This document shows, one piece after another, positions 8,841 through 50,470 of a stretch of 60,000 bases of DNA. The position numbers and the translations under genes were made by a program. The notes under the pieces are model-generated. The model was not told the origin of the DNA. It worked only from the letters and a program-made list of their open reading frames with translations, and did not search any database. The stretch lies in NCBI RefSeq assembly GCF_026151205.1, contig NC_087072.1, positions 24,075,603 to 24,135,602 of the forward strand. Reading direction: 5' to 3'. This DNA comes from Bolinopsis microptera (lineage: Eukaryota; Ctenophora; Tentaculata; Lobata; Bolinopsidae). Each line of letters begins with the position of its first letter. Within the stretch, counting starts at the first letter, position 1.

Positions 8841-9210
8841 AGGAGTTGTTGGGCTACTTTTGGATGTTATAGCAACAATTAACAGTTGCTGGGCTACTTT
8901 TGGGTGTTATAGCAACAATTAACAGTTGTTGGGCTACTTTTGGGTGTTATAGCAACAATTAACAGTTGCTGGGCTACTTTTGGGTGTTATAGCAACAATT
9001 AACAGTTGCTGGGCTACTTTTGGGTGTTATAGCAACAATTAACAGTTGCTGGGCTACTTTTGGGTGTTATAGCAACAATTAACAGTTGCTGGGCTACTTT
9101 TGGGTGTTATAGCAACAATTAACAGTTGCTGGGCTACTTTTGGGTGTTATAGCAACAATTAACAGTTGCTGGGCTACTTTTGGGTGTTATAGCAACAATT
9201 AACAGTTGCA
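8841..9210. repeat. 40-bp minisatellite, nine units
   Basis: Unit AACAGTTGCTGGGCTACTTT followed by TGGGTGTTATAGCAACAATT. The first unit (8841-8880) is diverged, the next eight (8881-9200) are nearly identical, and a partial unit follows. Each unit has a short inverted pair (GTTGCT...AGCAAC), so each transcript copy could fold into a small hairpin. It starts about 130 bases after the UBA3 stop and could be in its 3' UTR. Confidence 0.95.
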
Positions 9211-9711: not shown

Positions 9712-9817
9712 ATGTACCGAGCGTTGCAGATAGTGGGAAGCCGTGCCAGCCATGCTGCCATCTCCTACAACCACATTTACCTCAGCCAGACAGTCAGAAA
9801 CGCTTCAACTTTACTTG
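9712..9817 (+). CDS. Probable first coding exon of F6: mitochondrial presequence
   Basis: ATG 9712 opens a 35-residue peptide, starting MYRALQIVGSRASHAAISYN, before a GT donor at 9818-9819 (GTATGC). It is rich in Ser, Ala and spaced Arg/His and has no acidic residue, the profile of a mitochondrial targeting peptide. The exon ends in phase 1, the phase needed by the acceptor at 13654 of the F6 repeat exon, and joining them reads [11 protein letters not shown]. No closer ATG exon with that phase was seen. The join is an inference: it implies a 3.8-kb intron containing an SLC22 gene on the other strand. Confidence 0.6.
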
Positions 9818-10139
9818 GTATGCCGTTTGTTTTGTTTTTAATTTTATTTATGTAATATGATAGATATGGATTGTGGTGGGGAGGTGAGGCAAAACGTTAA
9901 AAATGAACATAATGCTTCTGAACAGAGTTGATGGGCCCAATATAAATAGGACAAATTACTTATCGAATCAGAAGTCCAAATTGCGCCTCAATAAAGGGTC
10001 TTCTTAAAAAAGTTGAAGGAAGACGCGTTAATATTTATCCAATACGCGCACGTACGAAAATAAATTGAATTGCATACACGGCTGCGCTGTCATGTTCAGA
10101 AGGGCGATTTCTGCGATTTTAATCAGATAGAGAGATATA

Positions 10140-10770
10140 ATAGGATTACCCTAGGATTTAAAGCGCGTCCGAGATATCCCAGATTTTATCAATCCTTACG
10201 CCGATCCGGTTCCCCTAGGATACCCCCGATGAATTCCTATCGCCGAGCGGCGATAGGATGTGTAAGTTCCGAGAGCAGTGGCGTAACGTTGCCTGTTGGC
10301 GCCCCCCTGCCGAAAAAAGCGCCCCCCTGTTGGCGCCCCCTCCCCTTTTGGTGCCCCTCCCTAAAATTGAACAAATTAGGTGATTTTAAAGAATACGCCG
10401 GTAAAATCTCTAAAAAAGTGTGTATCTAGAGCAAAACGCGCAGTTTTGCTAGTACTTTAGTTAAGTTTTCGAAATTGTCCCACATTCAAACGACGATTTG
10501 GCGCCCTAAGATTTACCCCCCTAAGACGGCGCCCCCCTGCACAGCGGGGTCAGCAGGGCCTTTCGTTACGCCACTGTCCGAGAGGCGATAGGATTTGCTT
10601 TCGGACCCGATAGGAAATTAAAAACCTATCGGATCCGAGCGCTAATCCTAGCGGAGATAGGATTTAACAATTCCGAGTGCCGATAGGATCTGCTATCGGA
10701 CCTGATAGGATACTCAAATCCTATAGGATCCGAGAGCAAATCCGAGAGGCGATAAAATTTCAAATATCAG
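10140..10770. repeat. CGATAGGA palindromic repeat tract
   Basis: Many short inverted and direct copies of TCCTATCG/CGATAGGA, including a perfect palindrome TCCTATCGCC-GAGC-GGCGATAGGA around 10235-10258. Units such as ATCGGACC..GATAGGA recur after the hAT insertion. This is probably a decayed fold-back or satellite element that existed before the hAT insertion, because the insertion's target duplication lies within it. Confidence 0.6.
10276..10576. mobile_element. hAT-type MITE with perfect 8-bp target duplication
   Basis: Starts CAGTGGCGTAACG and ends CGTTACGCCACTG (13-bp exact inverted repeats). Both sides are flanked by the identical octamer TCCGAGAG (10268-10275 and 10577-10584). An 8-bp duplication plus CAGTGGCGTA ends points to the hAT superfamily. 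The 301-bp interior is rich in GCGCCCCCCT and has no transposase, so it is non-autonomous and fairly recent. Confidence 0.92.
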
Positions 10771-11238
10771 GACCGATATAATTGGAAGACGACGCCTATC
10801 GCAAGAGAGAAACTCGCTGATATTTTCGATTATTTAAAAAAAAAGACATTGGGACAAAAGTAAAACCAATTTTATAGTCAGCAAAAGATAATAAAAATTT
10901 AGCAAATAGCAATATAAGATTGAGAATTGTATAAATCTTTGAGAATCAGGCAATAGTTTTACGTTTGCGGGCCTGCATCATGAATATAAATAATTTTGGT
11001 GTTATGCTTTATGTTGCAAGCACTTTAATCTCCTTTAGTAACACAATTGACAACGTCTGGTTTCGTCAAGCTGATTCTAATCTCTGACATCAGTTCCAGG
11101 GTTGTGGAAAGTTTAAAGGGCCTGAAACATAAACGAATAAAAATTAATAAATCACTTTGGTGTTCTTTAATCTTCTTTAGTAATCTTCTATAGTAACTTT
11201 GACCATAATTTACAACGTTTGGTTTCATCTAGCTGATT

Positions 11239-12789
11239 CTAATCTTTGATATCTTTGGGGGTTTCGGGAATAGCAACTCCAGTAGTATCAGGCAGGAAGA
11301 AAGAAGCCAAACACCCACAGAAAGCCAAACCGGCGAACAAAGCCAGGGGGACCCTCCTATCACTAACTCCGTACAGTAGACTTACATAGGGTCCGAGGAA
11401 ACTGCCAACCCTGGCACTACTGGAACTCAAACACATTATCATGCCACGGTGAGAGGTCGGAGATAGTTCTCCTGTGTACAAATAGACCATGGCGAACGCC
11501 GCTGTCCCAGATACACTGCCGAGTAAACTGGCAACATGTTCCAGCGTCCAGGACTCTGAAAACTTCACGTCTAACATGGCTATGAAGTTAAATACAGCTA
11601 TGCCTCCAAAAAGGAAGATTGTGGCTCGTTTTCTTCCAAGAAGTTTGCAAACAGGAATCGAGGAAACGTAGCCAATAGCTCCTCCTAGCGCACCAAAGAA
11701 GTAGCTGGTGTAAAGATTGCTCCCAATTTTGCTCCAACCAAAAGTGTACCCATATCCTATCATGGACACGAAGAACCAGCAAAGCATGGAGAGTAGAGCT
11801 CTTTTCAGCATAGCCGGATATCTCTTAAAATCACTGACTTGTTTGAAATAATTTTGCACCCTTTTCTCGTAGATTAGATTTACACCTTCAAAGGAGAAGC
11901 GGTTACCAGTAGCACGGAAAAAGGACAACAGACATTTTTTTGCTTCTTTTTCCTCACCTCGGACCAAATGAAACCTAGGGGATTCTGGAAGAGGATTCAC
12001 GATAAACATGATAGTGCTAAACGCGCAAATTCCAGCTGCAGCAAGGTAAACATGCTGCCATTTGTCAACCAAGTACCCAAGTAGCACCAAAATAAGGTAG
12101 CTTATCGACCAGCCAGTGTTGTAGAACCCACTTGCTATGTTCCGGAGGTTTGTTGGGGCAAATTCAATGATCCAACAGTAAGTACCCGTGTAGCTGATCA
12201 TCAGGCCAAACCCAGACATTATCCTAAATACGAGCAGGGCCTCGTAGTTGGGGGCAACAGCGCTTGCTGCAGTAGCCAGTGTGGTAATAGCACTTCCTAA
12301 AAGTGCTCCCTTTTTGCGACCTATCCTATCGAAGATTCCAGTTGAGCATAACAATCCAAAGATTCCACCAAAAAAATATACTCCAGATATTGTAGACAAC
12401 TTCGCCTCGTTCTTGCAGTAGATATTCCAGTCCGTTGTGAAAGTCGTCTTTTTTGTGGCCCAATCAAAATCTATCCCAGCGATAAAGTCGTTGTCGCACA
12501 TCGTCTGTTGAGAGAAGAAGGTTTCTTTGTCGGAAGCTGCTGCATAAAGAGAGGTGCATTTTTTCGAAGAGCATGTCCAGTCTTTATAGGGTATGTTTCC
12601 AGTTATCACAGTCATGTTAGTTACAGCGCCTGATTGGAAAACCGTACTGAGTGCGGCCCAGTAGATGAAAGCAACCCTAAAGTTCAGTCTTTTCACAGTT
12701 TTGTCGATGACATCTTCGATCGTGAAAAATTCTTCTTGAAGAGAATCTTTCGGCATCTCCTTGTCAGCGATTTGTTCAATTGAAGTCAT
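11239..12789 (-). CDS. SLC22-type organic ion transporter, copy 1 (inverted)
   Basis: 516 residues in a single exon, start codon at 12787-12789. A major-facilitator protein of the plasma membrane that would carry organic cations, anions or zwitterions; the substrate is not predictable. The layout is that of SLC22: first membrane segment near 36-58, a long Cys-containing extracellular loop (CSSKKC...MCDNDF...TTDWNIYC) to about residue 130, then GIFDRIGRKKGALLG (about 150-164), NPLPESPRFHLVRGEE (about 262) before the cytoplasmic loop, and YTGELSPTSHRG (about 437). It is the only minus-strand copy of five and lies between the proposed F6 presequence exon and F6 exon 2. It is closest to copy 2, but its first 60 residues differ most (MTSIEQIADKEMPKD). 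Confidence 0.92.
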   Translation of the reverse strand: MTSIEQIADKEMPKDSLQEEFFTIEDVIDKTVKRLNFRVAFIYWAALSTVFQSGAVTNMTVITGNIPYKDWTCSSKKCTSLYAAASDKETFFSQQTMCDNDFIAGIDFDWATKKTTFTTDWNIYCKNEAKLSTISGVYFFGGIFGLLCSTGIFDRIGRKKGALLGSAITTLATAASAVAPNYEALLVFRIMSGFGLMISYTGTYCWIIEFAPTNLRNIASGFYNTGWSISYLILVLLGYLVDKWQHVYLAAAGICAFSTIMFIVNPLPESPRFHLVRGEEKEAKKCLLSFFRATGNRFSFEGVNLIYEKRVQNYFKQVSDFKRYPAMLKRALLSMLCWFFVSMIGYGYTFGWSKIGSNLYTSYFFGALGGAIGYVSSIPVCKLLGRKRATIFLFGGIAVFNFIAMLDVKFSESWTLEHVASLLGSVSGTAAFAMVYLYTGELSPTSHRGMIMCLSSSSARVGSFLGPYVSLLYGVSDRRVPLALFAGLAFCGCLASFFLPDTTGVAIPETPKDIKD

Positions 12790-13312
12790 TTTAAGATGTG
12801 AGTCAAACTATTAAAGAGGACTACAAAAGCTGTTCTCGTAAAGAAATGAGAGTTAATTAAGTCATCATCATCAATATTTACCGCCCCTAATATAGGGTTT
12901 CTACCACCTAAGAAGAATTTAGGTTAATTGTTCTCAATTGAATCAGCCACAGTTCATGCTGATAAATCTGGTGTCGAGGTGACTGGTCAGGTTAATTTAA
13001 TCAGACGCCGAGAAGATAACCGACTTTAATTTATGATCAATATCTTCTGTGCTACTCGAACTTATCATAGCAGCAGATCTTTCGAAAATATTAGCTCAGT
13101 CTAGCTTCAACCACAATGTCCACAAGTATGAATCTTAACTGCCATAATCAATACCTTCAACCAGCAATTGATGCACACCTGATTTATTTCGATATTTGAT
13201 TAGATAAAATCTTATCATGGATCGGAAAGATTGATTGAGGATATCATATCGGTCGAATTTATTTCAGTGATCGATAGCATATTGGATAGTATCGTGAGGT
13301 TCACCCTAAATT

Positions 13313-13336
13313 GGGGGGGGGGGGGGGGGGGGGGGG
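13313..13336 (+). repeat. 24-nt poly-G tract
   Basis: Uninterrupted run of 24 G, followed by CGGGGAGGGG. It could form a G-quadruplex. It lies near the edge of the inverted SLC22 segment. Confidence 0.9.
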
Positions 13337-13438
13337 CGGGGAGGGGTTACTTAGCTTGCTGGTCTATTGCTCACTTCTCTTAGGGAGCAAAAGTGAAATA
13401 AATGCTCACGATCTTGAAGGGAATATCACGCTAGGTAA

Positions 13439-13461
13439 GGGGGGGGGGGGGGGGGGGGGGG
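13439..13461 (+). repeat. 23-nt poly-G tract
   Basis: Second uninterrupted G run, 102 bases after the first. Such lengths are error-prone in sequencing, so the exact counts are uncertain. Confidence 0.9.
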
Positions 13462-13653
13462 CGGGCGCGGCATTTTTCCGAAGTGAGGGTCTTTTTTAGA
13501 TTTGTGTATTTTCTCGTCCACTTGAACGTTCGGTCGACAAGGAAAATAATTGGGTACAAACTACAAAATGCTCCCAGGGGCGAAAAAAAGGTCTGATCTT
13601 TTAAACACATAATCAATTCTATGTTAATTTGGATTCTGAATGCTGTTTTTCAG

Positions 13654-15820
13654 TGAGCAGGGGATACGAACCTAACAATGTCACGGGGAGCACTATTTTG
13701 GCCAAGTTCGGTACTCCACGAAATCTCTCTGATGGAGGAAAAAAGAAAAAGGGAAGAAAAGGAAAGAAAGGCAAGAGTAGTTCTTCTGTACAAGAAGTCA
13801 TGGACAAAGTAAAGACAGAGGCTGTGGAAGCGAAAGAAGTAGAAGTCGCAGAAGCCGCTGCAGCTGAAGCCGCCGCTGCCGAAGCCGCCGCTGCCGAAGC
13901 CGCCGCTGCCGAAGCCGCCGCTGCCGAAGCCGCCGCTGCCGAAGCCGCCGCTGCCGAAGCCGCCGCTGCCGAAGCCGCCGCTGCCGAAGCCGCTGCTGCC
14001 GAAGCCGCTGCTGCCGAAGCCGCTGCTGCCGAAGCTGCTGCTGCCGAAGCTGCAGCTCTCGAGGCTGCAGCTGCTGAAGCCGCAGCTGCCGAAGCCGCAG
14101 CTGCCGAAGCCGCTGCTGCCGAAGCTGCTGCTGCCGAAGCCGCTGCTGCCGAAGCTGCTGCTGCCGAAGCTGCTGCTGCCGAAGCCGCTGCTGCCGAAGC
14201 TGCTGCTGCCGAAGCTGCTGCTGCCGAAGCCGCTGCTGCCGAAGCTGCTGCTGCCGAAGCCGCTGCTGCCGAAGCCGCTGCTGCCGAAGCTGCTGCTGCC
14301 GAAGCCGCTGCTGCCGAAGCTGCTGCTGCCGAAGCTGCTGCTGCCGAAGCTGCTGCTGCCGAAGCTGCTGCTGCCGAAGCTGCTGCTGCCGAAGCTGCTG
14401 CTGCCGAAGCTGCTGCTGCCGAAGCTGCTGCTGCCGAAGCTGCTGCTGCCGAAGCTGCTGCTGCCGAAGCTGCTGCTCTCGAGGCCGCTGCTGCCGAAGC
14501 TGCTGCTGCCGAAGCCGCTGCTGCCGAAGCCGCAGCTGCCGAAGCTGCTGCTGCTGAAGCTGCAGCTCTCGAGGCCGCTGCTGCCGAAGCTGCTGCTGCC
14601 GAAGCTGCAGCTCTCGAGGCCGCTGCTGCCGAAGCTGCTGCTGCCGAAGCTGCAGCTCTCGAGGCTGCTGCTGCCGAAGCCGCTGCTGCCGAAGCCGCTG
14701 CTGCTGAAGCCGCTGCTGCCGAAGCCGCTGCTGCCGAAGCCGCTGCTGCTGAAGCTGCTGCTGCTGAAGCCGCTGCTGCCGAAGCCGCTGCTGCTGAAGC
14801 TGCTGCTGCTGAAGCCGCTGCTGCCGAAGCTGCTGCTGCTGCCGAAGCTGCTGCTGCCGAAGCTGCTGCTGCCGAAGCTGCTGCTGCCGAAGCTGCTGTT
14901 GCCGAAGCCGCTGCTGCCGAAGCTGCAGCTCTTGAGGCTGCTGCTGCCGAAGCTGCTGCTACTGAAGCTGCTGCTGCCGAAGCCGCTGCTGCTGAAGCCG
15001 CTGCTGCCGAAGCTGCTGCTGTTGAAGCTGCTGCTGCCGAAGCTGCTGCTGTTGAAGCTGCTGCTGCTGCTGAAGCTGCTGCTGCCGAGGCCGCTGCTGC
15101 CGAAGCTGCTGCTGTTGAAGCTGCTGCTGTTGAAGCTGCTGCTGCCGAAGCCGCTGCTGCCGAAGCCGTTGCTCTCGAGGCCGCTGCTGCTGAAGCTGCT
15201 GCTGCCGAAGCTGCAGCTCTTGAGGCTGCTGCTGCCGAAGCCGCTGCTGCAGAAGCTGCTGCTGCCGAAACTGCTGCTGCTACCGAAGCTGCTGCTGTTG
15301 AAGCTGCTGCTGCCGAAGCTGCTGCTGTTGAAGCTGCTGCTGTTGAAGCTGCTGCCGAAGCTGCTGCTGAGGCTGCCGCTGCTACAGAGGTAGCAGCTGC
15401 TGAGGCTGCTGCTGTTGTCGAGGCTGCTGAAGCTGCCGAACCCGAGGCTGCTGCTGAAGTTGCCGAACCTGAGGCCGCTGCCGAAGTCGCCAGCGTAGAC
15501 CCCGTCAAGGATGCGTTTATCGAATTACTTAAAGAATTCACCACTGAGGCGGCGAGCGCGGAGTCTTTACCAGGTACTCATTTCCCGTCAAATAATGCAA
15601 CTCTTATGTAGCTGTAATAACATTATTATTTCAATTCATCCGATATATAGTATTGATCACGATAAATTATATTTATTCGAGATTGATCAGTTTTTAACCA
15701 AATTCTATCACAGGATTGACACCAGAGATATTAGCCGCTCACCAAACCGAGCTGGATAGGATTAAGAAAATGTACGGAGGGGCAGATGACATAGAATCCT
15801 TCCCTACCTTCAAGTTTTAG
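13654..15820 (+). CDS. ATP-synthase coupling factor 6 with giant EAAAA repeat, copy A (exons 2-3)
   Basis: Exon 2 (13654-15573) and exon 3 (15714-15820) join in phase 1 across a 140-base GT-AG intron; with exon 9712-9817 the protein is 710 residues. Order: presequence, [18 protein letters not shown], a basic patch ([12 protein letters not shown]), about 100 pentads of E-A-A-A-A (about 101-605, occasional Leu, Val or Thr), an AEPEAAAEV zone, then the F6 domain (about 650-710). That domain reads [15 protein letters not shown] ... [14 protein letters not shown] ... FPTFKF-stop, matching F6 (human LDPIQKLF ... KLKQMFGNAD ... FPTFKF). F6 sits in the mitochondrial ATP-synthase peripheral stalk and is normally near 100 residues. 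ATG is absent just before the acceptor, so an upstream exon is required. F6 identity is strong; tolerance of the insertion is unknown. Confidence 0.85.
13848..15360 (+). repeat. 15-bp coding minisatellite (EAAAA codons), array A
   Basis: About 100 units of the type GCCGAAGCTGCTGCT, all in frame. The 5' part uses GCCGCCGCT, the middle GCTGCTGCC, and the 3' part carries GTT, CTT and ACT variants. Blocks with CTCGAG (Leu-Glu) recur at irregular spacing, a footprint of block duplication. The array is open in several frames on both strands only because of its composition. Confidence 0.95.
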
Positions 15821-17320: not shown

Positions 17321-18177
17321 AATCATGCCAATCTGCCAATCGTCAGTATGCTGAACGAAAAATGAAATCCTCTTGATCTTATGGACTTTGATAAAGATCT
17401 ACACAACTATATCATGATCTATTATAACTATAAGGTACGTACGACTTGAAATTCCAAGTATTTTATTTGTAATTCAATGTCCAATATTTTGGGGGTTTTA
17501 CTTTCAGATTGCCGTTTTAACTTTGGCTTATAAAATAAAAATAATATACATCGATTCAAGTTGGTTTCAACTTACAATTGTCGGGGGCCCATTTAGAAAA
17601 TATTTGAACTTCGAGTGTAGAGTGATTAATTAGCACGCTCGTTTAACATAATATATGAATGACCCCTAATTTAAAGCCAAAGGCCCTCCACATGACACCG
17701 GCCACGGTCCAGTCCACCAAATTTTGAGTCTTGGTTAAAATGATCTTATCAGCGTCTCATTCAGTTAACCCAGCCACCTCGGGGTTAAAAATGTTACAAG
17801 AATCCACAGAGTTTCGGTAATTACTCTAAAAATTGGAGATTTAATTTTATCAGCAGGAACTGTTGATGAACTTGAAGTTAAATTACCTGGGCCTGGGTGA
17901 GGAGTCCCCACTGGGGACCCTAGGTTATTAGTATTATGTACATAAAATAGAGATTCGGTGGAATGTCAGGCTGAGCGCCAGGCCCAGTAAATTTTAAAGT
18001 TTAAACTGTTGTTGATTCGATCAGGAACAGTAGTAACCTAAACCTGAATTATTCTTAGGTGGATCCGGGATTTCCTCTTATCATTTAGGTAAATACCGAT
18101 ATCACCTCATGTTCACTTCATTTTTTTACGAGAACAGCTTTTTTAGTTCTCTTTAATCGTTTGACTCACATCTTAAA

Positions 18178-19728
18178 ATGACTTCAGTCGAACCCATCAC
18201 TGGAAAGGAGAAGCCGAAAGATTCTCTTCAAGAAGAATTTTTAACTATCGAAGATGTTATCGACAAAACTGTGAAAAGACTGAACTTTAGGCTTGCTTTC
18301 ATCTACTGGGTCGCACTCAGTACGGTTTTCAACGCAGGTGTTGTAACCAACATGACAGTGATGACTGGAAACATACCCTATAAAGACTGGACATGCTCTT
18401 CGAAAAAATGCACCTCTCTATATGCAGCAGCTTCCGACAAAGAAAACTTCTTCACTGAACGGACAATGTGCGACAATGACTTTATCGCTGGAATAGATTT
18501 TGATTGGGCCACAAAAAAGACGACTTTCACAACGGACTGGAATATCTACTGCAAGAACGAGGCGAAGTTGTCTACAATATCTGGAGTATATTTTTTTGGC
18601 GGAATCTTTGGATTGTTATGCTCAACTGGAATCTTCGATAGGATAGGTCGCAAGAAAGGAGCACTTTTAGGAAGTGCTATTACCACACTGGCTACTGCAG
18701 CAAGCGCTGTTGCCCCCAACTACGAGGCCCTGCTAGTATTTAGGATAATGTCTGGGTTTGGCCTGATGATCAGCTACACGGGTACTTACTGTTGGATCAT
18801 TGAATTTGCCCCAACAAACCTCCGGAACATAGCTAGTGGTTTCTACAACACTGGCTGGTCGATAAGCTACCTCATTTTGGTGCTACTTGGGTACTTGATT
18901 GACAAATGGCAGCATGTTTACCTTGCTGCAGCTGGAATTTGCGCGTTCAGCACTATCATGTTTATCGTGAATCCTCTTCCAGAATCCCCTAGGTTTCATT
19001 TGGTCCGAGGTGAGGAAAAAGAAGCGAAAAAATGTCTGTTGTCGTTTTTCCGTGCTACTGGTAACCGCTTCTCCTTTGAAGGTGTAAATCTAATTTACGA
19101 GAAAAGGGTGCAAAATTATTTCAAACAGGTCAGTGATTTTAAGAGATATCCGGCTATGCTAAAAAGAGCTCTACTCTCCATGCTTTGCTGGTTCTTCGTG
19201 TCCATGATAGGATATGGGTACACTTTTGGTTGGAGCAAAATTGGGAGCAATCTTTACACCAGCTACTTCTTTGGTGCGCTAGGAGGAGCTATTGGCTACG
19301 TTTCCTCGATTCCTGTTTGCAAACTTCTTGGAAGAAAACGAGCCACAATCTTCCTTTTCGGAGGCATAGCTGTATTTAACTTCATAGCCATGTTAGACGT
19401 GAAGTTTTCGGAGTCCTGGACGCTGGAACATGTTGCCAGTTTACTCGGCAGTGTATCTGGGACAGCGGCGTTTGCCATGGTCTATTTGTACACAGGAGAA
19501 CTATCTCCGACCTCTCACCGTGGCATGATAATGTGTTTGAGTTCCAGTAGTGCCAGAGTCGGCAGTTTCCTCGGACCCTACGTAAGTCTACTGTACGGAG
19601 TTACTGATAGGAGGGTCCCCCTGGCTTTGTTCGCCGGTTTGGCTTTCTGTGGGTGTTTGGCTTCTTTCTTCCTGCCTGATACTACTGGAGTTGCTATTCC
19701 AGAAACCCCCAAAGATGTCAAAGATTAG
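18178..19728 (+). CDS. SLC22-type organic ion transporter, copy 2
   Basis: 516 residues, single exon, with the full SLC22 layout: loop 1 cysteines (CSSKKC, MCDNDF, NIYC), GRKKGALLG near 155, PESPRFHL near 266 and GELSPTSHRG near 439. Twelve membrane segments are expected and no break is seen. Its first 200 residues are identical or nearly so to copy 3, while its second half (FYNTGWSISYLILVLLG, FFRATGN, MIGYGYTFGW) matches copy 1. The upstream sequence has lost the TATA-like box seen in copies 4 and 5 (reads TTTAGGTAAATACC). F6 copy B follows 450 bases downstream on the same strand. Confidence 0.93.
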   Translation: MTSVEPITGKEKPKDSLQEEFLTIEDVIDKTVKRLNFRLAFIYWVALSTVFNAGVVTNMTVMTGNIPYKDWTCSSKKCTSLYAAASDKENFFTERTMCDNDFIAGIDFDWATKKTTFTTDWNIYCKNEAKLSTISGVYFFGGIFGLLCSTGIFDRIGRKKGALLGSAITTLATAASAVAPNYEALLVFRIMSGFGLMISYTGTYCWIIEFAPTNLRNIASGFYNTGWSISYLILVLLGYLIDKWQHVYLAAAGICAFSTIMFIVNPLPESPRFHLVRGEEKEAKKCLLSFFRATGNRFSFEGVNLIYEKRVQNYFKQVSDFKRYPAMLKRALLSMLCWFFVSMIGYGYTFGWSKIGSNLYTSYFFGALGGAIGYVSSIPVCKLLGRKRATIFLFGGIAVFNFIAMLDVKFSESWTLEHVASLLGSVSGTAAFAMVYLYTGELSPTSHRGMIMCLSSSSARVGSFLGPYVSLLYGVTDRRVPLALFAGLAFCGCLASFFLPDTTGVAIPETPKDVKD

Positions 19729-20179: not shown

Positions 20180-22312
20180 TGAGCAGGGGATACGAACCTA
20201 ACAATGTCACGGGGAGCACTATTTTGGCCAAGTTCGGTACTCCACGAAATCTCTCTGATGGAGGAAAAAAGAAAAAGGGAAGAAAAGGAAAGAAAGGCAA
20301 GAGTAGTTCTTCTGTACAAGAAGTCATGGACAAAGTAAAGACAGAGGCTGTGGAAGCAAAAGAAGTAGAAGTCGCAGAAGCCGCTGCAGCTGAAGCCGCC
20401 GCTGCCGAAGCTGCCGCTGCCGAAGCCGCTGCTGCCGAAGCCGCTGCTGCCGAAGCCGCTGCTGCCGAAGCCGCTGCTGCCGAAACCGCTGCTGCCGAAG
20501 CCGCTGCTGCCGAAGCCGCTGCTGCCGAAGCCGCTGCTGCCGAAGCCGCTGCTGCCGAAGCCGCTGCTGCCGAAGCCGCTGCTGCCGAAGCCGCTGCTGC
20601 CGAAGCCGCTGCTGCCGAAGCCGCTGCTGCCGAAGCCGCTGCTGCCGAAGCCGCTGCTCTCGAGGCCGCTGCTTTCGAGGCTGCTGCTGCTGAAGCCGCT
20701 GCTGCCGAAGCTGCAGCTCTCGAGGCTGCTGCTGCCGAAGCTGCTGCTGCCGAAGCTGCTGCTGCCGAAGCTGCTGCTGCCGAAGCCGCTGCTGCCGAAG
20801 CCGCTGCTGCCGAAGCTGCTGCTGCCGAAGCTGCTGCTGCCGAAGCTGCTGCTGCCGAAGCCGCTGCTGCCGAAGCCGCTGCTGCCGAAGCCGCTGCTGC
20901 CGAAGCCGCTGCTGCCGAAGCCGCTGCTGCCGAAGCCGCAGCTGCCGCAGCTGCCGAAGCCGCTGCTGCCGAAGCTGCTGCTGCCGAAGCTGCTGCTGCC
21001 GAAGCCGCTGCTGCCGAAGCTGCTGCTCTCGAGGCCGCTGCTGCCGAAGCTGCAGCTCTCGAGGCCACTGCTGCCGAAGCTGCAGCTCTCGAGGCTGCTG
21101 CTGCTGAAGCCGCAGCTGCCGAAGCTGCAGCTCTCGAGGCTGCTGCTGCCGAAGCTGCTGCTTCCGAAGCCGCTGCTGCTGAAGCCGCTGCTGCCGAAGC
21201 CGCTGCTGCTGAAGCCGCTGCTGCCGAAGCTGCTGCTGCCGAAGCTGCTGCTGCTGAAGCCGCTGCTGCCGAAGCTGCTGCTGCTGAAGCCGCTGCTGCC
21301 GAAGCTGCTGCTGCTGAAGCCGCTGCTGCTGAAGCCGCTGCTGCCGAAGCTGCTGCTGCTGAAGCCGCTGCTGCCGAAGCTGCTGCTGCTGAAGCCGCTG
21401 CTGCCGAAGCTGCTGCTGCTGAAGCTGCTGCTGCTGAAGCCGCTGCTGCCGAAGCTGCTGCTGCCGAGGCTGCTGCTGCCGAAGCTGCTGCTGCCGAAGC
21501 TGCTGCTGCCGAAGCTGCTGCTGCCGAAGCTGCTGCTGCCGAAGCTGCTGCTGCCGAAGCTGCTGCTGCCGAAGCTGCTGCTGCCGAAGCTGCTGCTGCC
21601 GAAGCTGCTGCTGCCGAAGCTGCTGCTGCCGAAGCTGCTGCTGCCGAAGCTGCTGCTGTTGAAGCTGCTGCTGCCGAGGCTGCTGCTGTTGAAGCTGCTG
21701 CTGCCGAGGCTGCTGCTGTTGAAGCCGCTGCTGCCGAAGCTGCAGCTCTCGAGGTTGCTGCTGCCGAAGCCGCTGCTGCCGAAGCTGCTGCTGCCGAAGC
21801 TGCTGCCGAAGCCGCTGCTATCGAGGCCGCTGCTCTCGAGGCCGCTGCTGCTGAAGCTGCCGAACCCGAGGCTGCTGCTGAAGTTGCCGAACCTGAGGCC
21901 GCTGCCGAACCTGAGGCCACTGCCGAACCTGAGGCCGCTGCCGAACCTGAGGCCGCTGCCGAACCTGAGGCCGCTGCCGAAGTCGCCAGCGTAGACCCCG
22001 TCAAGGATGCGTTTATCGAATTACTTAAAGAATTCACCACTGAGGCGGCGAGCGCGGAGTCTTTACCAGGTACTCATTCCCCGTCAAATAATGCAACTCT
22101 TATGTAGCTGTAATAACATTCTTATTTCAATTCATCCGATAATATTGATCACGATAAATTATACTTATTCTAGATTGATCAGTTTTTAACCAAATTCTAT
22201 CACAGGATTGACACCAGAGATATTAGCCGCTCACCAAACCGAGCTGGATAGGATCAAGAAAATGTACGGAGGGGCAGATGACATAGAATCCTTCCCTACC
22301 TTCAAGTTTTAG
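20180..22312 (+). CDS. ATP-synthase coupling factor 6 with giant EAAAA repeat, copy B (exons 2-3)
   Basis: Paralogue of copy A. Exon 2 is 20180-22069 (1,890 bases, ten codons shorter than copy A) and exon 3 is 22206-22312, with the same phase 1 join. It carries the same SRGYEPNN start, basic patch, about 95 E-A-A-A-A pentads, five AEPEA-type units, and an F6 domain identical in sequence to copy A (VDPVKDAF ... MYGGADD ... PTFKF). The frame stays open through 1.5 kb of repeats, which argues for selection or very recent origin. It lacks its own presequence exon nearby; it could be an alternative cassette spliced from exon 9712, be expressed from ATG 20146 without a clear presequence, or be unexpressed. 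Confidence 0.75.
20374..21800 (+). repeat. 15-bp coding minisatellite (EAAAA codons), array B
   Basis: About 95 in-frame units. Composition and block order differ from array A (long GCCGCTGCTGCCGAA runs first, alternating GCT/GCC blocks at 21160-21440, then uniform GCTGCTGCC units), so the two arrays have expanded or been homogenised separately since the duplication. Confidence 0.95.
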
Positions 22313-24310
22313 AGTGATACCATCGAGTTTAATCATCGAAGATGATAATTTTGATTAATTTATTCAACGTACCCCGAGGGTTGCTACCATTGACAGCTGT
22401 TTACGCTCCATGCTGAACTTTAATCATGTCACGAATATTTTGGGTTCATATATTTTTGAACTTTTAATTCAATGTTAAGGATGATCTTGAAGGGCTTGAA
22501 TAATCGCTTGTAGTGGAATGAAAGCATAAAATCTGTGCGACACCGCATATGGAAATTGATTTTGCTATGTTTTGTGTTTGAAATGTAGCCTAATCTGAGG
22601 CTTGTCTAAAATTATTGTTTGTCAAGTCTTTTTAGTTTCAGTGAAACTTTTGATAAGAGCTGATACGTCCTATGATAGCGTGAATCGTTCAGTTTGATAA
22701 TACATATATTGATCCTAGGAGGCAGAAGCTTTGGCTTATCACGTGAATCCTTATCCAGACATTTGGTATTAAAATGTTAATTATTATACCAATTCTTCTC
22801 TATGAGTTTTATCATTTACTTTGATATTTTATACACATTGGCGGTTTTTATTTTCCTTTGCTGACTGAGGAATCATCGGACCACTACCGGATCCAAATCA
22901 TGTAACTTATCAAAAAGGTCAAACAATTTTCATTTTAAAAATGTAACATCACAAAATATCTGAAATTCCTAAACGTTTTCGAAATCCAACATGATGATTT
23001 CAGGATTGACTTCACATTTAAGCATTTGGTTTTCTTAAAACCCTCAAGACTAATTGCATCGTAAAATTATTTAATTCCTAGACTTAGAGCGAGATAAGGC
23101 TTCAGATTTTGAAACGTTGGATTTCGATCATGTTACCTTTAAAGTTAAAGTGTGAATAAATATAAACAGCTCTTAAACTTTCCACATTACAGACTCTAAC
23201 TGTGATGAAGATGTACATAACTAGATGATACCGAGCTAATAAGTGAAACCGATCGCTAATACTATAATATAGCTTCAAGTTACATCTTCATGACAGTTAC
23301 ATTTGGAAACTTAAACTGTAATACAATAATCAATGTTCCTATGACCTTCATAATCATTATGACACAGAAAATTTTTTTCACGATTGATAATGATTATACC
23401 ACTTTTACATTCATCATTTGTAGCAAGATTAGGCGGTTCATGACGAATCAAATCATGCCAATCTGCCAATCGTCAGTATGCTGAACGAAAAATGAAATCC
23501 TCTTGATCTTATGGACTTTGATAAAGATCTACACAACTATATCATGATCTATTATAACTATAAGGTACGTACGACTTGAAATTCCAAGTATTTTATTTGT
23601 ATTTTATTTGTAATATTTTGGGGGTTTTACTTTCAGATTGCCGTTTTAACTTTGGCTTATAAAATAAAAATAATATACATCGATTCAAGTTGGTTTCAAC
23701 TTGCAATTGTCGGGGGCCCATTTAGAAAATATTTGAACTTCGAGTGTAGAGTGATTAATTAGCACGCTCGTTTAACATAATATATGAATGACCCCTAATT
23801 TAAAGCCAAAGGCCCTCCACATGACACCGGCCACGGTCCAGTCCACCAAATTTTGAGTCTTGGTTAAAATGATCTTATCAGCGTCTCATTCAGTTAACCC
23901 AGCCACCTCGGGGTTAAAAATGTTACAAGAATCCACAGAGTTTCGGTAATTACTCTAAAAATTGGAGATTTAATTTTATCAGCAGGAACTGTTGATGAAC
24001 TTAAAGTTAAATTACCTGGGCCTGGGTGAGCGGTCCCCACTGGGGACCCTAGGTTATTAGTATTATGTACATAAAATAGAGATTCGGTGGAATGTCAGGC
24101 TGAGCGCCAGGCCCAGTAAATTTTAAAGTTTAAACTGTTGTTGATTCGATCAGGAACAGTAGTAACCTAAACCTGAATTATTCTTAGGTGGATCCGGGAT
24201 TTCCTCTTATCATTTAGGTCTGTAAATACCGATATCACCTCATGTTCACTTCATTTTTTTACGAGAACAGCTTTTTTAGTTCTCTTTAATCGTTTGACTC
24301 ACATCTTAAA
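22313..24310. other. Spacer, F6 copy B to SLC22 copy 3
   Basis: Non-coding and colinear with 15821-18177, but with a single copy of the 236-bp segment and no poly-G fold-back. The promoter-proximal part reads TCTGTAAATACC where copies 4/5 have TCTATAAATACC. Confidence 0.7.
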
Positions 24311-25861
24311 ATGACTTCAGTCGAACCCATCACTGGAAAGGAGAAGCCGAAAGATTCTCTTCAAGAAGAATTTTTAACTATCGAAGATGTTATCGACAAA
24401 ACTGTGAAAAGACTGAACTTTAGGCTTGCTTTCATCTACTGGGTCGCACTCAGTACGGTTTTCAACGCAGGTGTTGTAACCAACATGACAGTGATGACTG
24501 GAAACATACCCTATAAAGACTGGACATGCTCTTCGAAAAAATGCACCTCTCTATATGCAGCAGCTTCCGACAAAGAAAACTTCTTCACTGAACGGACAAT
24601 GTGCGACAATGACTTTATCGCTGGAATAGATTTTGATTGGGCCACAAAAAAGACGACTTTCACAACGGACTGGAATATCTACTGCAAGAACGAGGCGAAG
24701 TTGTCTACAATATCTGGAGTATATTTTTTTGGTGGAATCTTTGGATTGTTATGCTCAACTGGAATCTTCGATAGGATAGGTCGCAAGAAAGGAGCACTTT
24801 TAGGAAGTGCTATTACCACACTGGCTACTGCAGCAAGCGCTGTTGCCCCCAACTACGAGGCTCTGCTCGTATTTAGGATAATGTCTGGGTTTGGCCTGAT
24901 GATCAACTACACGGGAAGTTACTGTTGGATCATTGAATTTGCCCCCACAAACCTCCGGAACATAGCAAGTGGGTTCTACCCCATGGGTTGGTCTATAAGC
25001 TCTCTTATGTTGGCGCTTCTTGGGTACTTGATTGACAAATGGCAGCATGTTTACCTAGCTGCCGCTGGAATTTGCGCGTTCTGCACTATCATGTTTATCG
25101 TGAATCCTCTTCCAGAATCCCCTAGGTTTCATTTGGTCCGAGGTGAGGAAAAAGAAGCTAAAAAATGTCTGTTGTCCTTTTTCCAGGCTACTGGTAACCG
25201 CTTCTCCTTTGAAGGTGTAAATCTAATTTACGAGAAAAGGGTGCAAAATTATTTCAAACAGGTCAGTGATTTTAAGAGATATCCAGCCATGCTAAAAAGG
25301 ACTCTTCTCTGTATGCTCTGCTGGTTCTTCGTCTCAATCATAGGATTTGCATACACTTTTGGTTGGAGCAAAATTGGGAGCAATCTTTACACCAGCTACT
25401 TACTTGGTGCGCTAGGAGGATCTATTGGGAACGTTTCTTCGATACCTGCTTGCAAACTTCTTGGAAGAAAAGGAGCTACAATCTTCTTTTTCGGAGGCAT
25501 AGCTGTATTCAACTTCATAGCCATGGTACACGTACAGTTTTCAGAGTCCTGGACGCTGGAATATGTTGCCAGTTTACTCGGCAGTATATCTGGATCAGCG
25601 GCGTTCGCCATGGTCTATTTGTACACAGGAGAACTATCTCCGACCTCTCACCGTGGCATGATAATGTGTTTGAGTTCCAGTAGTGCCAGGGTCGGCAGTT
25701 TCCTCGGACCCTATGTAAGTCTACTGTACGGAGTTAGTGATAGGAGGGTCCCCCTGGCTTTGTTTGCTGGTTTGGCTTTCTGTGGGTGTTTGGCTTCTTT
25801 CTTCCTGCCTGATACTACTGGAGTTGCTATTCCCGAAACCCCCAAAGATGTCAAAGATTAG
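24311..25861 (+). CDS. SLC22-type organic ion transporter, copy 3 (mosaic)
   Basis: 516 residues, single exon, intact, with the same SLC22 landmarks as the other copies. It is a patchwork. Residues 1 to about 200 equal copy 2 (ENFFTERTMC, GIDFDWATKK). From about 220 on it follows copies 4/5 (FYPMGWSISSL, FFQATGN, SIIGFAYTFGW, VHVQFSESWTLEYV), except for a copy 2-like KWQHVYLAAAGICAF block near 241-255. It also has private changes (INYTGSYC, FCTIMF). This pattern indicates gene conversion or unequal crossing-over within the array. Changes in membrane segments 7-9 could alter substrate choice. Confidence 0.93.
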   Translation: MTSVEPITGKEKPKDSLQEEFLTIEDVIDKTVKRLNFRLAFIYWVALSTVFNAGVVTNMTVMTGNIPYKDWTCSSKKCTSLYAAASDKENFFTERTMCDNDFIAGIDFDWATKKTTFTTDWNIYCKNEAKLSTISGVYFFGGIFGLLCSTGIFDRIGRKKGALLGSAITTLATAASAVAPNYEALLVFRIMSGFGLMINYTGSYCWIIEFAPTNLRNIASGFYPMGWSISSLMLALLGYLIDKWQHVYLAAAGICAFCTIMFIVNPLPESPRFHLVRGEEKEAKKCLLSFFQATGNRFSFEGVNLIYEKRVQNYFKQVSDFKRYPAMLKRTLLCMLCWFFVSIIGFAYTFGWSKIGSNLYTSYLLGALGGSIGNVSSIPACKLLGRKGATIFFFGGIAVFNFIAMVHVQFSESWTLEYVASLLGSISGSAAFAMVYLYTGELSPTSHRGMIMCLSSSSARVGSFLGPYVSLLYGVSDRRVPLALFAGLAFCGCLASFFLPDTTGVAIPETPKDVKD

Positions 25862-26360: not shown

Positions 26361-26775
26361 TAAGCAGGAGATACGAACCTAACAATGTCACGGGGAGCAC
26401 TATTTTGGCCAAGTTCGGTATTCCACGAAATCTTTATCTATCACCAAGAATGTAATTTTATTAGGAATGTTTTGAAAGCAATAAAAGAAGTTCTGGAGAA
26501 CCCGGGCATTGATCCCGGTACCTCTCACATGCTAAGCGAGCGCTCTACCATTTGAGCTAGTCCCCCGATACAGTTTCGAGAAATCACTTGGTAAAAATCA
26601 AATTAATAGAAGTCTCTTAATTGCAAAAAAAAGTCTCCACGGAATATAATTTGGATTTTATTAATATGTAAACATTCCCAATCATATTTGAATTATGACA
26701 TTTGATTACCTTTCACTAATGATTATGAAGCTGCCGATCCCGACGCCAGATACATTACGGCTTACATTCACATAT
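26361..26775 (+). pseudogene. F6 remnant, unit 3
   Basis: After an intact acceptor (TATTTTTCAG) the first 75 or so bases of F6 exon 2 are kept ([11 protein letters not shown]... to PRNL), then the frame runs into a stop at 26453-26455. The alanine repeat is gone. Near 26728 a short stretch GAAGCTGCCGATCCCGACGC matches the AAEPEA zone, followed by a degraded exon 3 start. A tRNA-Ala gene occupies the middle. Confidence 0.75.
26494..26566 (-). tRNA. tRNA-Ala (AGC), copy 1
   Basis: Read on the minus strand: acceptor GGGGGAC pairs with GTTCTCC including the alanine identity pair G3:U70, discriminator A, D arm AGCTCAAATGGTAGAGC, anticodon loop TTAGCAT (AGC) and T arm CCGGG-ATCAATG-CCCGG. A54 in the T loop is also found in the fly tRNA-Ala I recall. 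No intron, and CCA is not encoded. A TTTT terminator follows within about 12 bases. Confidence 0.93.
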
Positions 26776-29850: not shown

Positions 29851-29890
29851 CTTTTGTAGTCATCTTTAATCGTTTGACTCACATCTTAAA

Positions 29891-31449
29891 ATGACTTCAG
29901 TCGAGCCCATCACTGGAAAGGAGAAGCCGAAAGATTCTCTTCAAGAAGAATTTTTCACAATCGAAGATGTTATCGACAAAACTGTGAACAAACTGAACTT
30001 TAGGCTTGCTTTCATCTTCTGGGCCGCACTCAGTACGGTTTTCAACGCAGGTGCTGTAACCGACATGACGGTGATGACTGGAAACATACCCTTTAAAGAC
30101 TGGACATGCTCTTCGAAAAAATGCACCTCTCTCTATGCAGCAGCTTCCGACAAAGAAACCTTCTTCTCTCAACAGACGATGTGCGACAACGACTTTATTG
30201 CTGGGATAGATTTTCATTGGGCCACAAAAAAGACGACTTTCACAACGGACTGGAATATCTACTGCAAGAACGAGGCGAAGCTGTCTACAATATCTGGAGT
30301 ATATTTTTTTGGTGGAATCTTTGGATTGTTATGCTCAACTGGAATCTTCGATAGGATAGGTCGCAAAAAAGGAGCACTTTTAGGAAGTGCTATTACCACA
30401 CTGGCTACTGCAGCAAGCGCTGTTGCCCCCAACTACGAGGCCCTGCTCGTATTTAGGATAATGTCTGGGTTTGGTCTGATGATCAGCTACACGGGTACTT
30501 ACTGTTGGATCATTGAATTTGCCCCCACAAACCTCCGGAACATAGCAAGTGGGTTCTACCCAATGGGCTGGTCTATAAGCTCTCTTATGTTGGCGCTTCT
30601 TGGGTACTTGATTGACAAATGGCAGCATATATACCTAGCTACAGCTGGAATTTGCGCGTTCAGCACTATCATGCTTATCGTGAATCCTCTTCCAGAATCA
30701 CCTAGGTTTCATTTGGTCCGAGGTGAGGAAAAAGAAGCGAAAAAATGTCTGTTGTCGTTTTTCCAGGCTACTGGTAACCGCTTCTCCTTTGAAGGTGTAA
30801 ATCTAATTTACGAGAAAAGGGTGCAAAATTATTTCAAACAGGTCAGTGATTTTAAGACTTTAAGAGATATCCGGCTATGCTAAAGAGGACTCTTCTCTGC
30901 ATGCTCTGCTGGTTCTTCGTCTCAATCATAGGATTTGCATACACTTTTGGTTGGAGCAAAATTGGGAGTAATCTTTACACCAGCTACTTACTTGGTGCGC
31001 TAGGAGGATCTATTGGGAACGTTTCTTCGATACCTGCTTGCAAACTTCTTGGAAGAAAAGGAGCCACAATTTTCTTTTTCGGAGGCATAGCTGTATTTAA
31101 CTTCATAGCCATGGTACACGTGCAGTTTTCGGAGTCCTGGACGCTGGAATATGTTGCCAGTTTAATCGGCAGTATATCTGGATCAGCGGCGTTCGCCATG
31201 GTCTATTTGTACACAGGAGAACTATCTCCGACCTCTCACCGTGGCATGATAATGTGTTTGAGTTCCAGTAGTGCCAGGGTTGGCAGTTTCCTCGGACCCT
31301 ATGTAAGTCTACTGTACGGAGTTACTGATAGGAGGGTCCCCCTGGCTTTGTTTGCTGGTTTGGCTTTCTGTGGGTGTTTGGCTTCTTTCTTCCTGCCTGA
31401 TACTACTGGAGTTGCTATTCCCGAAACCCCCAAAGATGTCAAAGATTAG
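29891..31449 (+). pseudogene. SLC22-type transporter, copy 4 (frameshifted)
   Basis: The same single-exon gene as its neighbours, broken at about codon 325. Where other copies read GATTTTAAGAGATATCC, this one reads GATTTTAAG-ACTTTAAG-AGATATCC, an 8-base insertion. The first frame ends after 330 codons (29891-30883) in an altered TLRDIRLC tail; the remainder is open from ATG 30877 (190 codons to 31449). The first part has six membrane segments and the central loop, and the second the last six. Everything else is almost identical to copy 5, so the lesion is recent, or a sequencing error. Two half-transporters from one message cannot be excluded but are less likely. Confidence 0.85.
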
Positions 31450-31940: not shown

Positions 31941-32355
31941 TAAGCAGGAGATACGAACCTAACAATGTCACGGGGAGCACTATTTTGGCCAAGTTCGGTA
32001 TTCCACGAAATCTTTATCTATCACCAAGAATGTAATTTTATTAGGAATGTTTTGAAAGCAATAAAAGAAGTTCTGGAGAACCCGGGCATTGATCCCGGTA
32101 CCTCTCACATGCTAAGCGAGCGCTCTACCATTTGAGCTAGTCCCCCGATACAGTTTCGAGAAATCACTTGGTAAAAATCAGATTAATAGAAGTCTCTTAA
32201 TTGCAAAAAAAAAGTCTCCACGGAATATAATTTGGATTTTATTAATATGTAAACATTCCCAATCATATTTGAATTATGACATTTGATTACCTTTCACTAA
32301 TGATTATGAAGCTGCCGATCCCGACGCCAGATACATTACGGCTTACATTCACATA
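31941..32355 (+). pseudogene. F6 remnant, unit 4
   Basis: Almost identical to the unit 3 remnant: acceptor kept, exon 2 start (to PRNL) and then a stop, tRNA-Ala in place of the repeat, and a short AAEP-type and exon 3-like fragment from about 32308. Confidence 0.75.
32074..32146 (-). tRNA. tRNA-Ala (AGC), copy 2
   Basis: Identical in sequence to the gene at 26494-26566, with the same G3:U70 pair, AGC anticodon and TTTT terminator. It was duplicated together with unit 4. Confidence 0.93.
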
Positions 32356-35246: not shown

Positions 35247-35286
35247 CTTTTGTAGTCATCTTTAATCGTTTGACTCACATCTTAAA

Positions 35287-36837
35287 ATGACTTCAGTCGA
35301 GCCCATCACTGGAAAGGAGAAGCCGAAAGATTCTCTTCAAGAAGAATTTTTCACAATCGAAGATGTTATCGACAAAACTGTGAACAAACTGAACTTTAGG
35401 CTTGCTTTCATCTTCTGGGCCGCACTCAGTACGGTTTTCAACGCAGGTGCTGTAACCGACATGACGGTGATGACTGGAAACATACCCTATAAAGACTGGA
35501 CATGCTCTTCGAAAAAATGCACCTCTCTCTATGCAGCAGCTTCCGACAAAGAAACCTTCTTCTCTCAACAGACGATGTGCGACAACGACTTTATTGCTGG
35601 GATAGATTTTCATTGGGCCACAAAAAAGACGACTTTCACAACGGACTGGAATATCTACTGCAAGAACGAGGCGAAGCTGTCTACAATATCTGGAGTATAT
35701 TTTTTTGGTGGAATCTTTGGATTGTTATGCTCAACTGGAATCTTCGATAGGATAGGTCGCAAAAAAGGAGCACTTTTAGGAAGTGCTATTACCACACTGG
35801 CTACTGCAGCAAGCGCTGTTGCCCCCAACTACGAGGCCCTGCTCGTATTTAGGATAATGTCTGGGTTTGGTCTGATGATCAGCTACACAGGAACCTACTG
35901 TTGGATCATTGAATTTGCCCCTACAAACCTCCGGAACATAGCAAGTGGGTTCTACCCAATGGGCTGGTCTATAAGCTCTCTTATTTTTGCGCTTCTTGGG
36001 TACTTGATTGACAAATGGCAGCATATATACCTAGCTACAGCTGGAATTTGCGCGTTCAGCACTATCATGCTTATCGTGAATCCTCTTCCAGAATCCCCTA
36101 GGTTTCATTTGGTCCGAGGTGAGGAAAAAGAAGCGAAAAAATGTCTGTTGTCGTTTTTCCAGGCTACTGGTAACCGCTTCTCCTTTGAAGGTGTAAATCT
36201 AATTTACGAGAAAAGGGTGCAAAATTATTTCAAACAGGTCAGTGATTTTAAGAGATATCCGGCTATGCTAAAGAGGACTCTTCTCTGCATGCTATGCTGG
36301 TTCTTCGTCTCAATCATAGGATTTGCATACACTTTTGGTTGGAGCAAAATTGGGAGTAATCTTTACACCAGCTACTTACTTGGTGCGCTAGGAGGATCTA
36401 TTGGGAACGTTTCTTCGATAACTGCTTGCAAACTTCTTGGAAGAAAAGGAGCCACAATTTTCTTTTTCGGAGGCATAGCTGTATTTAACTTCATAGCCAT
36501 GGTACACGTGCAGTTTTCGGAGTCCTGGACGCTGGAATATGTTGCCAGTTTAATCGGCAGTATATCTGGATCAGCGGCGTTCGCCATGGTCTATTTGTAC
36601 ACAGGAGAACTATCTCCGACCTCTCACCGTGGCATGATAATGTGTTTGAGTTCCAGTAGTGCCAGGGTTGGCAGTTTCCTCGGACCCTATGTAAGTCTAC
36701 TGTACGGAGTTACTGATAGGAGGGTCCCCCTGGCTTTGTTTGCCGGTTTGGCTTTCTGTGGGTGTTTGGTTTCGTTCTTCCTGCCTGATACTACTGGAGT
36801 TGCTATTCCCGAAACCCCCAAAGATATCAAAGATTAG
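35287..36837 (+). CDS. SLC22-type organic ion transporter, copy 5
   Basis: 516 residues, one exon, intact and the closest relative of the broken copy 4. It has the SLC22 features described for copy 1: a Cys-rich first extracellular loop, GRKKGALLG near 155, PESPRFHL near 266 and GELSPTSHRG near 439. It differs from copies 1-3 at VNKLNFRLAFIFW, VTDMTVMTG and GIDFHW in the N-terminal third, and has a private SSITACK where others read SSIPACK or SSIPVCK (a helix-breaking Pro is lost near residue 379). Its upstream region is duplicated and carries a TATA-like box. Confidence 0.93.
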   Translation: MTSVEPITGKEKPKDSLQEEFFTIEDVIDKTVNKLNFRLAFIFWAALSTVFNAGAVTDMTVMTGNIPYKDWTCSSKKCTSLYAAASDKETFFSQQTMCDNDFIAGIDFHWATKKTTFTTDWNIYCKNEAKLSTISGVYFFGGIFGLLCSTGIFDRIGRKKGALLGSAITTLATAASAVAPNYEALLVFRIMSGFGLMISYTGTYCWIIEFAPTNLRNIASGFYPMGWSISSLIFALLGYLIDKWQHIYLATAGICAFSTIMLIVNPLPESPRFHLVRGEEKEAKKCLLSFFQATGNRFSFEGVNLIYEKRVQNYFKQVSDFKRYPAMLKRTLLCMLCWFFVSIIGFAYTFGWSKIGSNLYTSYLLGALGGSIGNVSSITACKLLGRKGATIFFFGGIAVFNFIAMVHVQFSESWTLEYVASLIGSISGSAAFAMVYLYTGELSPTSHRGMIMCLSSSSARVGSFLGPYVSLLYGVTDRRVPLALFAGLAFCGCLVSFFLPDTTGVAIPETPKDIKD

Positions 36838-50406: not shown

Positions 50407-50470
50407 CACACTGAAATAGAGTCAGTTCATTAGTTGCTTGCATTAAATATTCATTTCAGAAATATTGTCA

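Follow-up and report, generated by a model that had tools for sequence, protein, structure and literature searches.

Long charged helices that serve as spacers are familiar from single alpha-helix (ER/K) domains, in which acidic and basic residues are paired from i to i+4, and from designed (EAAAK)n linkers. In human cells, F6 is required for assembly of the peripheral stalk of ATP synthase, and when it is missing the prevailing form is a vestigial complex of F1 and subunit c, according to PMC7703580. Among other metazoans, PMC10903453 reports extensions of the stalk subunits b, d and F6 in the ATP synthase of C. elegans, and ctenophore mitochondrial DNA is described as being without atp6 and atp8 in PMC5924465. 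Here we analyse 60,000 nucleotides (the window) of the ctenophore Bolinopsis microptera (NCBI RefSeq assembly GCF_026151205.1, contig NC_087072.1, positions 24,075,603 to 24,135,602 of the forward strand), in which a gene at 9712-15820, termed copy A, appears to encode F6 preceded by a Glu-Ala repeat of about 500 residues. Positions count from the first letter of the window unless a contig is named, and genome searches covered the 264.65 Mb and 232 contigs of the assembly.

Structure of copy A and identity of its C-terminus

Copy A consists of three exons on the + strand. Exon 1 (9712-9817, with the donor GT at 9818) encodes the 35 residues MYRALQIVGSRASHAAISYNHIYLSQTVRNASTLL and is followed by intron 1 (9818-13653, +; phase 1, GT-AG), which contains an antisense transporter open reading frame (ORF). 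Exon 2 (13654-15573) holds, all on the + strand, a 65-residue segment with a 12-residue polybasic stretch (13656-13850), the (EAAAA)n array (13851-15428; 526 residues, 105 Glu units), a Pro-Glu-Ala hinge of 22 residues (15429-15494) and the first part of the F6 domain, namely 26 residues plus the first base of the codon after them (15495-15573). Intron 2 is likewise GT-AG and of phase 1, and exon 3 (15714-15820) supplies the remaining F6 domain up to the C-terminus FPTFKF and the stop TAG. Splicing of the three exons gives 710 residues in one frame with zero stops, running from N to C through the exon-1 residues, the 65-residue segment, the array, the hinge and a 61-residue F6 domain. The original prediction, made from the DNA letters, had proposed an in-frame array joined to F6 across a properly phased intron, which this stop-free frame with its unbroken E/A pattern bears out; its statement that the frame begins with the array needs correction, as the exon-1 part and the 65-residue segment precede the array and the hinge separates it from the F6 domain.

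The last 61 residues (VDPVKDAF...MYGGADD...FPTFKF) match PF05511 (ATP-synt_F6) at 42.7 bits (E 7.4e-11), against a gathering cut-off of 27.9 bits, and the match spans profile positions 36-95 of 97. When the C-terminus was searched against the PDB, F6 chains took the top ranks and 10 of the 14 rows obtained up to E 10 (E 1.4e-7 to 0.016); the other four rows are unrelated to F6 and have E values of 0.089 or worse. By sequence the C-terminus is F6, as had been supposed. The full length of 710 residues lies outside the usual, though not strict, F6 range near 70-110 residues. For the N-terminal 102 residues, a Pfam search with E up to 1 returned zero matches. Exon 1 is free of acidic residues and carries a net charge of +3, the first acidic residue of copy A being at position 41, but its hydrophobic moment is low; mitochondrial import of the product is plausible.

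Composition and coding status of the array

Among the 526 residues of the copy A array Glu occurs 105 times, and Lys, Arg and Asp are absent; these figures are close to the 500 residues and 100 negative charges first estimated. Exact EAAAA accounts for 79 of the 105 units; among the 26 that remain, 15 have five residues and end in Leu or Val. A second copy downstream, copy B, has an array of 492 residues and 98 units, 79 of them exact EAAAA. Copy A has 8 units (of 105) and copy B 2 (of 98) whose length is not five residues, with the E/A frame still unbroken in both; units of about ten residues, as expected from a lost Glu, occur in neither array, the nearest being one of eight residues in B.

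Open frames through the array are sense frame 0 plus two antisense frames, 0 and 1, in both copies, and additionally sense frame 1 in copy B, so openness is at best weak evidence for coding and by itself none. The unbroken E/A frame between recognisable coding ends is stronger evidence. The variation among units points the same way. The 31 distinct units of five residues, the only length taken (97 of 105 in A and 96 of 98 in B), are joined in a minimum spanning tree by 32 changes, 19 synonymous and 13 non-synonymous, where neutrality predicts 2.49 non-synonymous changes to each synonymous one (bias to synonymous, p 2.8e-4); the synonymous/non-synonymous counts are 16/7 for A alone and 14/10 for B alone. 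Such wobble-biased variation suggests, with caveats that are taken up below, that the array is translated.

The array was also considered as a dispersed repeat, a candidate that was dropped: all 28 genome matches to an exact array 30-mer fall at this locus, in a search for exact matches only. The 30-mer was used in place of a protein query of 50 E/A residues, which matched nothing, the array in the window included, and was therefore uninformative. The exact pattern EAAAEAAA with GCT codons only gave 0 matches in the genome search.

Shape of the predicted protein

As a single helix the array of copy A would measure 78.9 nm, so the earlier figure of roughly 75 nm was correct as arithmetic; a straight 79-nm rod is, however, an upper limit. 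With Glu at period 5, the acidic positions spiral about the helix (average moment 0.11 in 36-residue windows, maximum 0.44), far below the moment of 0.77 for ideal heptad a/d positions, and the apolar stripe of a coiled coil is absent. Nor is there any E-K/R pair at +3, +4 or +5 in the 526 residues (0 pairs). Because Glu winds at period 5 and has no basic partner, the array does not qualify as a coiled coil or as an ER/K helix. In an illustrative Zimm-Bragg two-state estimate, the helical blocks are 21-97 residues long. AlphaFold, run on exon 2 (two sequences), returned a model with a mean predicted local distance difference test score (pLDDT) of 64.2 and a predicted template modelling score (pTM) of 0.21, in which exon-2 residues 44-593 form one helix, residues 594-614 a break (pLDDT <50) and residues 616-636 another helix. 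Given the Pro-Glu hinge after the array and the modelled break before the F6 helix, a rigid extension of the stalk is unlikely. The continuous rod fused to the stalk that had been envisaged is not supported, given the Pro-containing break in a low-confidence model and the shorter helical blocks of the illustrative estimate.

The original prediction had offered tethering, spacing and cleavage on import as candidate alternatives. If the product is expressed and imported, a matrix protease might cut near the hinge to release an F6 of normal size, leaving the array as a neutral passenger. The F6 domain is complete by itself and lies behind a hinge that is modelled without structure, and array length varies as it would in a tolerated passenger, from 105 units in A to 98 in B; the wobble bias of the array, on the other hand, suggests that its protein sequence is held, and we regard cleavage as unlikely.

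An ordinary F6 gene elsewhere in the genome

Two places with ordinary F6 were found in a six-frame PF05511 search of the genome, both on a contig labelled C5, at 10.60 Mb and 10.15 Mb; the search misses the copies in the window because their F6 domain is split by an intron. Querying the genome with exon 3 recovered copies A and B, and the C5 pair at a weak E of 0.039. The two C5 copies sit 450 kb apart in segments with 99.3% identity across at least 4.8 kb; these segments are either real duplicates or an assembly effect. The encoded F6 (MSLTMSLRKALQTLPALRHMSTGSQDPIAALF...FPEAKF) has 85 residues and one intron of 766 or 761 bases, placed by eye; its domain scores 38.8 bits on PF05511, below the 42.7 bits of copy A, and its best PDB matches are F6 chains. 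By sequence, the extended gene is a diverged paralogue of this ordinary F6, an extra F6, and given the C5 genes it is not the sole one. The original prediction had taken it for the animal's F6: membership of the family stands through PF05511, while its place as sole F6 is weakened by the 85-residue gene. An intact F6 gene of normal length elsewhere, provided that it alone were expressed, had been named as a finding that would speak against the prediction; as to the first part, such a gene does exist on C5, in two near-identical copies.

With F6 proper supplied by another gene, the F6 domain of copy A might have been repurposed, the polybasic N-terminus anchoring something to ATP synthase or another partner through an acidic helical spacer. 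The long array does lie between the polybasic segment and the F6 end as a spacer would between two anchors. The 102 residues at the N-terminus, however, have no Pfam match at E up to 1 by which a partner could be named, so the idea is pure inference, and we consider it distinctly improbable.

To see whether the stalk is enlarged in general, the genome was searched for the subunits OSCP, b and d. Contig C3 gave one match, contig C5 two and contig C13 one, in open frames of 47, 121 and 169 residues; these lengths refer to the matching exons only, and an extension elsewhere in the genes is possible. The two matches to subunit b score equally and lie 53 kb apart, at C5:20539677 and C5:20592932.

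Copy B and the history of the locus

Copy B comprises an exon 2 (20180-22069, +; array at 20377-21852) and an exon 3 with stop (22206-22312, +) that has one synonymous difference from that of copy A. Two truncated exon-2 starts follow at 26363-26437 and 31943-32017 (both +), each with 25 residues matched at 88% identity and without an array. Since an exon-1 query across the genome matched a single place, that of copy A, copy B has either no first exon, an unrelated one, or one shared with A. Just behind each truncated copy is a tRNA-Ala (AGC) gene (26494-26566 and 32074-32146, both -); it is curious to see tRNA-Ala amplified next to a gene that has about 400 Ala codons, but the tRNA gene is probably a passenger of the tandem unit.

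In protein sequence, the F6 domain and the 65-residue segment are identical between A and B. The non-array coding sequence, counted without the stretch behind the array, differs by 2 substitutions, both synonymous, in 374 aligned bases, of which two bases lie behind the stop, and intron 2 by 5 substitutions in 136 bases. Behind the array there are 5 substitutions in 145 bases and 72 gap columns, the hinge being longer in B, and 3' of exon 3 there are 0 substitutions in 946 aligned bases, with 22 gap columns. The zero substitutions in the 3' flank point to a recent duplication or gene conversion, and the differing arrays beside 3' flanks free of substitutions to fast turnover of the array.

Five intronless MFS transporter ORFs, which we take to be SLC22-like, form a tandem array in which the locus lies. 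The first (11239-12807, -) lies inside intron 1 and is inverted relative to those downstream, at 18157-19728, 24290-25861, 29870-31449 (split into two overlapping frames) and 35266-36837. Pfam matches to MFS_1 and Sugar_tr were present in all three ORFs run, the first three of the five. It seems that exons 2-3 of the F6 gene were copied together with a transporter.

Such a layout would also suit a recently disturbed locus, in which tandem multiplication of the transporter shuffled the gene and the array expanded with little or no expression, the C5 gene being the working F6. Several observations fit: the genome search brought up no exon 1 belonging to copy B, the two other copies are truncated, intron 1 is occupied by an inverted transporter, and an intact ordinary F6 is present on C5. 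Yet copy A runs for 710 codons without a stop or frameshift, and its F6 domain fits the family model better than the C5 domain does; we see this outcome as a serious but minority prospect.

Other features of the window and genome

Nine copies of a 40-base unit (98% matches) occupy 8844-9209, between exon 1 and an upstream gene with ThiF and E2_bind matches that is presumably UBA3-like. At 49132-50421 (-) an ORF of 429 residues, G-protein-coupled-receptor-like by eye, ends in a repeat of about 30 bases (SKDSASRDMV). Elsewhere in the genome, 10 of 32 matches to the ligand domain of ionotropic glutamate receptors fall within single open frames of at least 900 codons, from which these receptors are largely intronless here. 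In the PDB the best matches of such domains are to ML032222a iGluR, from Mnemiopsis, and the 114-residue piece of that entry finds its best place in the genome at 82% identity, as expected of a ctenophore that is probably other than M. leidyi.

Proposed role and significance

Our leading reading is that copy A is a real F6-family gene encoding a second, extended F6 beside the ordinary one, with its F6 domain in the stalk, and we place its probability at roughly 0.45. In some ATP synthase complexes the F6 domain would occupy the normal F6 site of the peripheral stalk, and the polybasic stretch and about 105 E-A-A-A-A units would form an acidic, mostly helical arm in the matrix on the Pro-Glu hinge. 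The array would have grown by slippage of its 15-base unit and would be tolerated, possibly serving as an acidic brush or a spacer. We infer that the gene is expressed and that its product is imported and built into the enzyme, and we infer the role of the arm as well; a giant arm on the ATP synthase is possible on the present sequence, in an animal that has an ordinary F6 too.

Several results weigh against this reading. An ordinary F6 gene is present and could be sufficient by itself. Exon 1 is not amphipathic, its hydrophobic moment being reached by 1873 of 2000 shuffles, and the moment of the N-terminus is 0.18 in copy A versus 0.32 in the ordinary F6 (shuffle control for copy A only). The structure model is weak, with its pTM of 0.21. 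The identity of the F6 part between A and B is weak evidence of constraint, the duplication or conversion apparently being recent. The wobble bias could partly stem from CpG mutability at codon ends, triplet slippage or homogenisation, and it fits an antisense reading as well, since the (SAAAA)n frame uses the same wobble positions.

A bolder and highly doubtful extension is that some ctenophore ATP synthases carry an F6 with an acidic helical arm on a hinge; with a length of up to about 79 nm, the arm would cross the matrix so that its polybasic tip meets membranes or nucleoids, spacing or tying neighbouring complexes. A stalk subunit about seven times the usual length would test the tolerance of the rotary enzyme, and a giant F6 would test whether long acidic helices can organise cristae. 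Should the array be a mere slippage product on a spare paralogue, it would still represent extreme repeat growth within the gene family of an essential enzyme.

Comparison with known systems

No repeat-bearing F6 appeared among the literature matches listed, judged by titles and the openings of abstracts; as subscription journals are mostly outside the coverage, this is weak evidence of novelty. As here, the C. elegans enzyme is that of a metazoan with extended stalk subunits including F6, although in the available text the changes in d and F6 are termed more subtle and a repeat array is unmentioned (PMC10903453). The array of copy A shares a long charged helix with the ER/K domains and (EAAAK)n linkers introduced above, but unlike them it has neither Lys nor Arg and hence no acid-base pairs. 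The ordinary F6 on C5 has the same domain as copy A, with 20 of 61 residues identical, and like it a separate, intron-split first exon, which in the C5 gene is presequence-like; unlike copy A, it comprises 85 residues without an array. The F6 chains in the PDB share the C-terminal domain, the 61 residues of copy A likewise ending in FPTFKF, whereas these ten chains are 66-108 residues long and copy A extends to 710 residues with an N-terminal array of 526.

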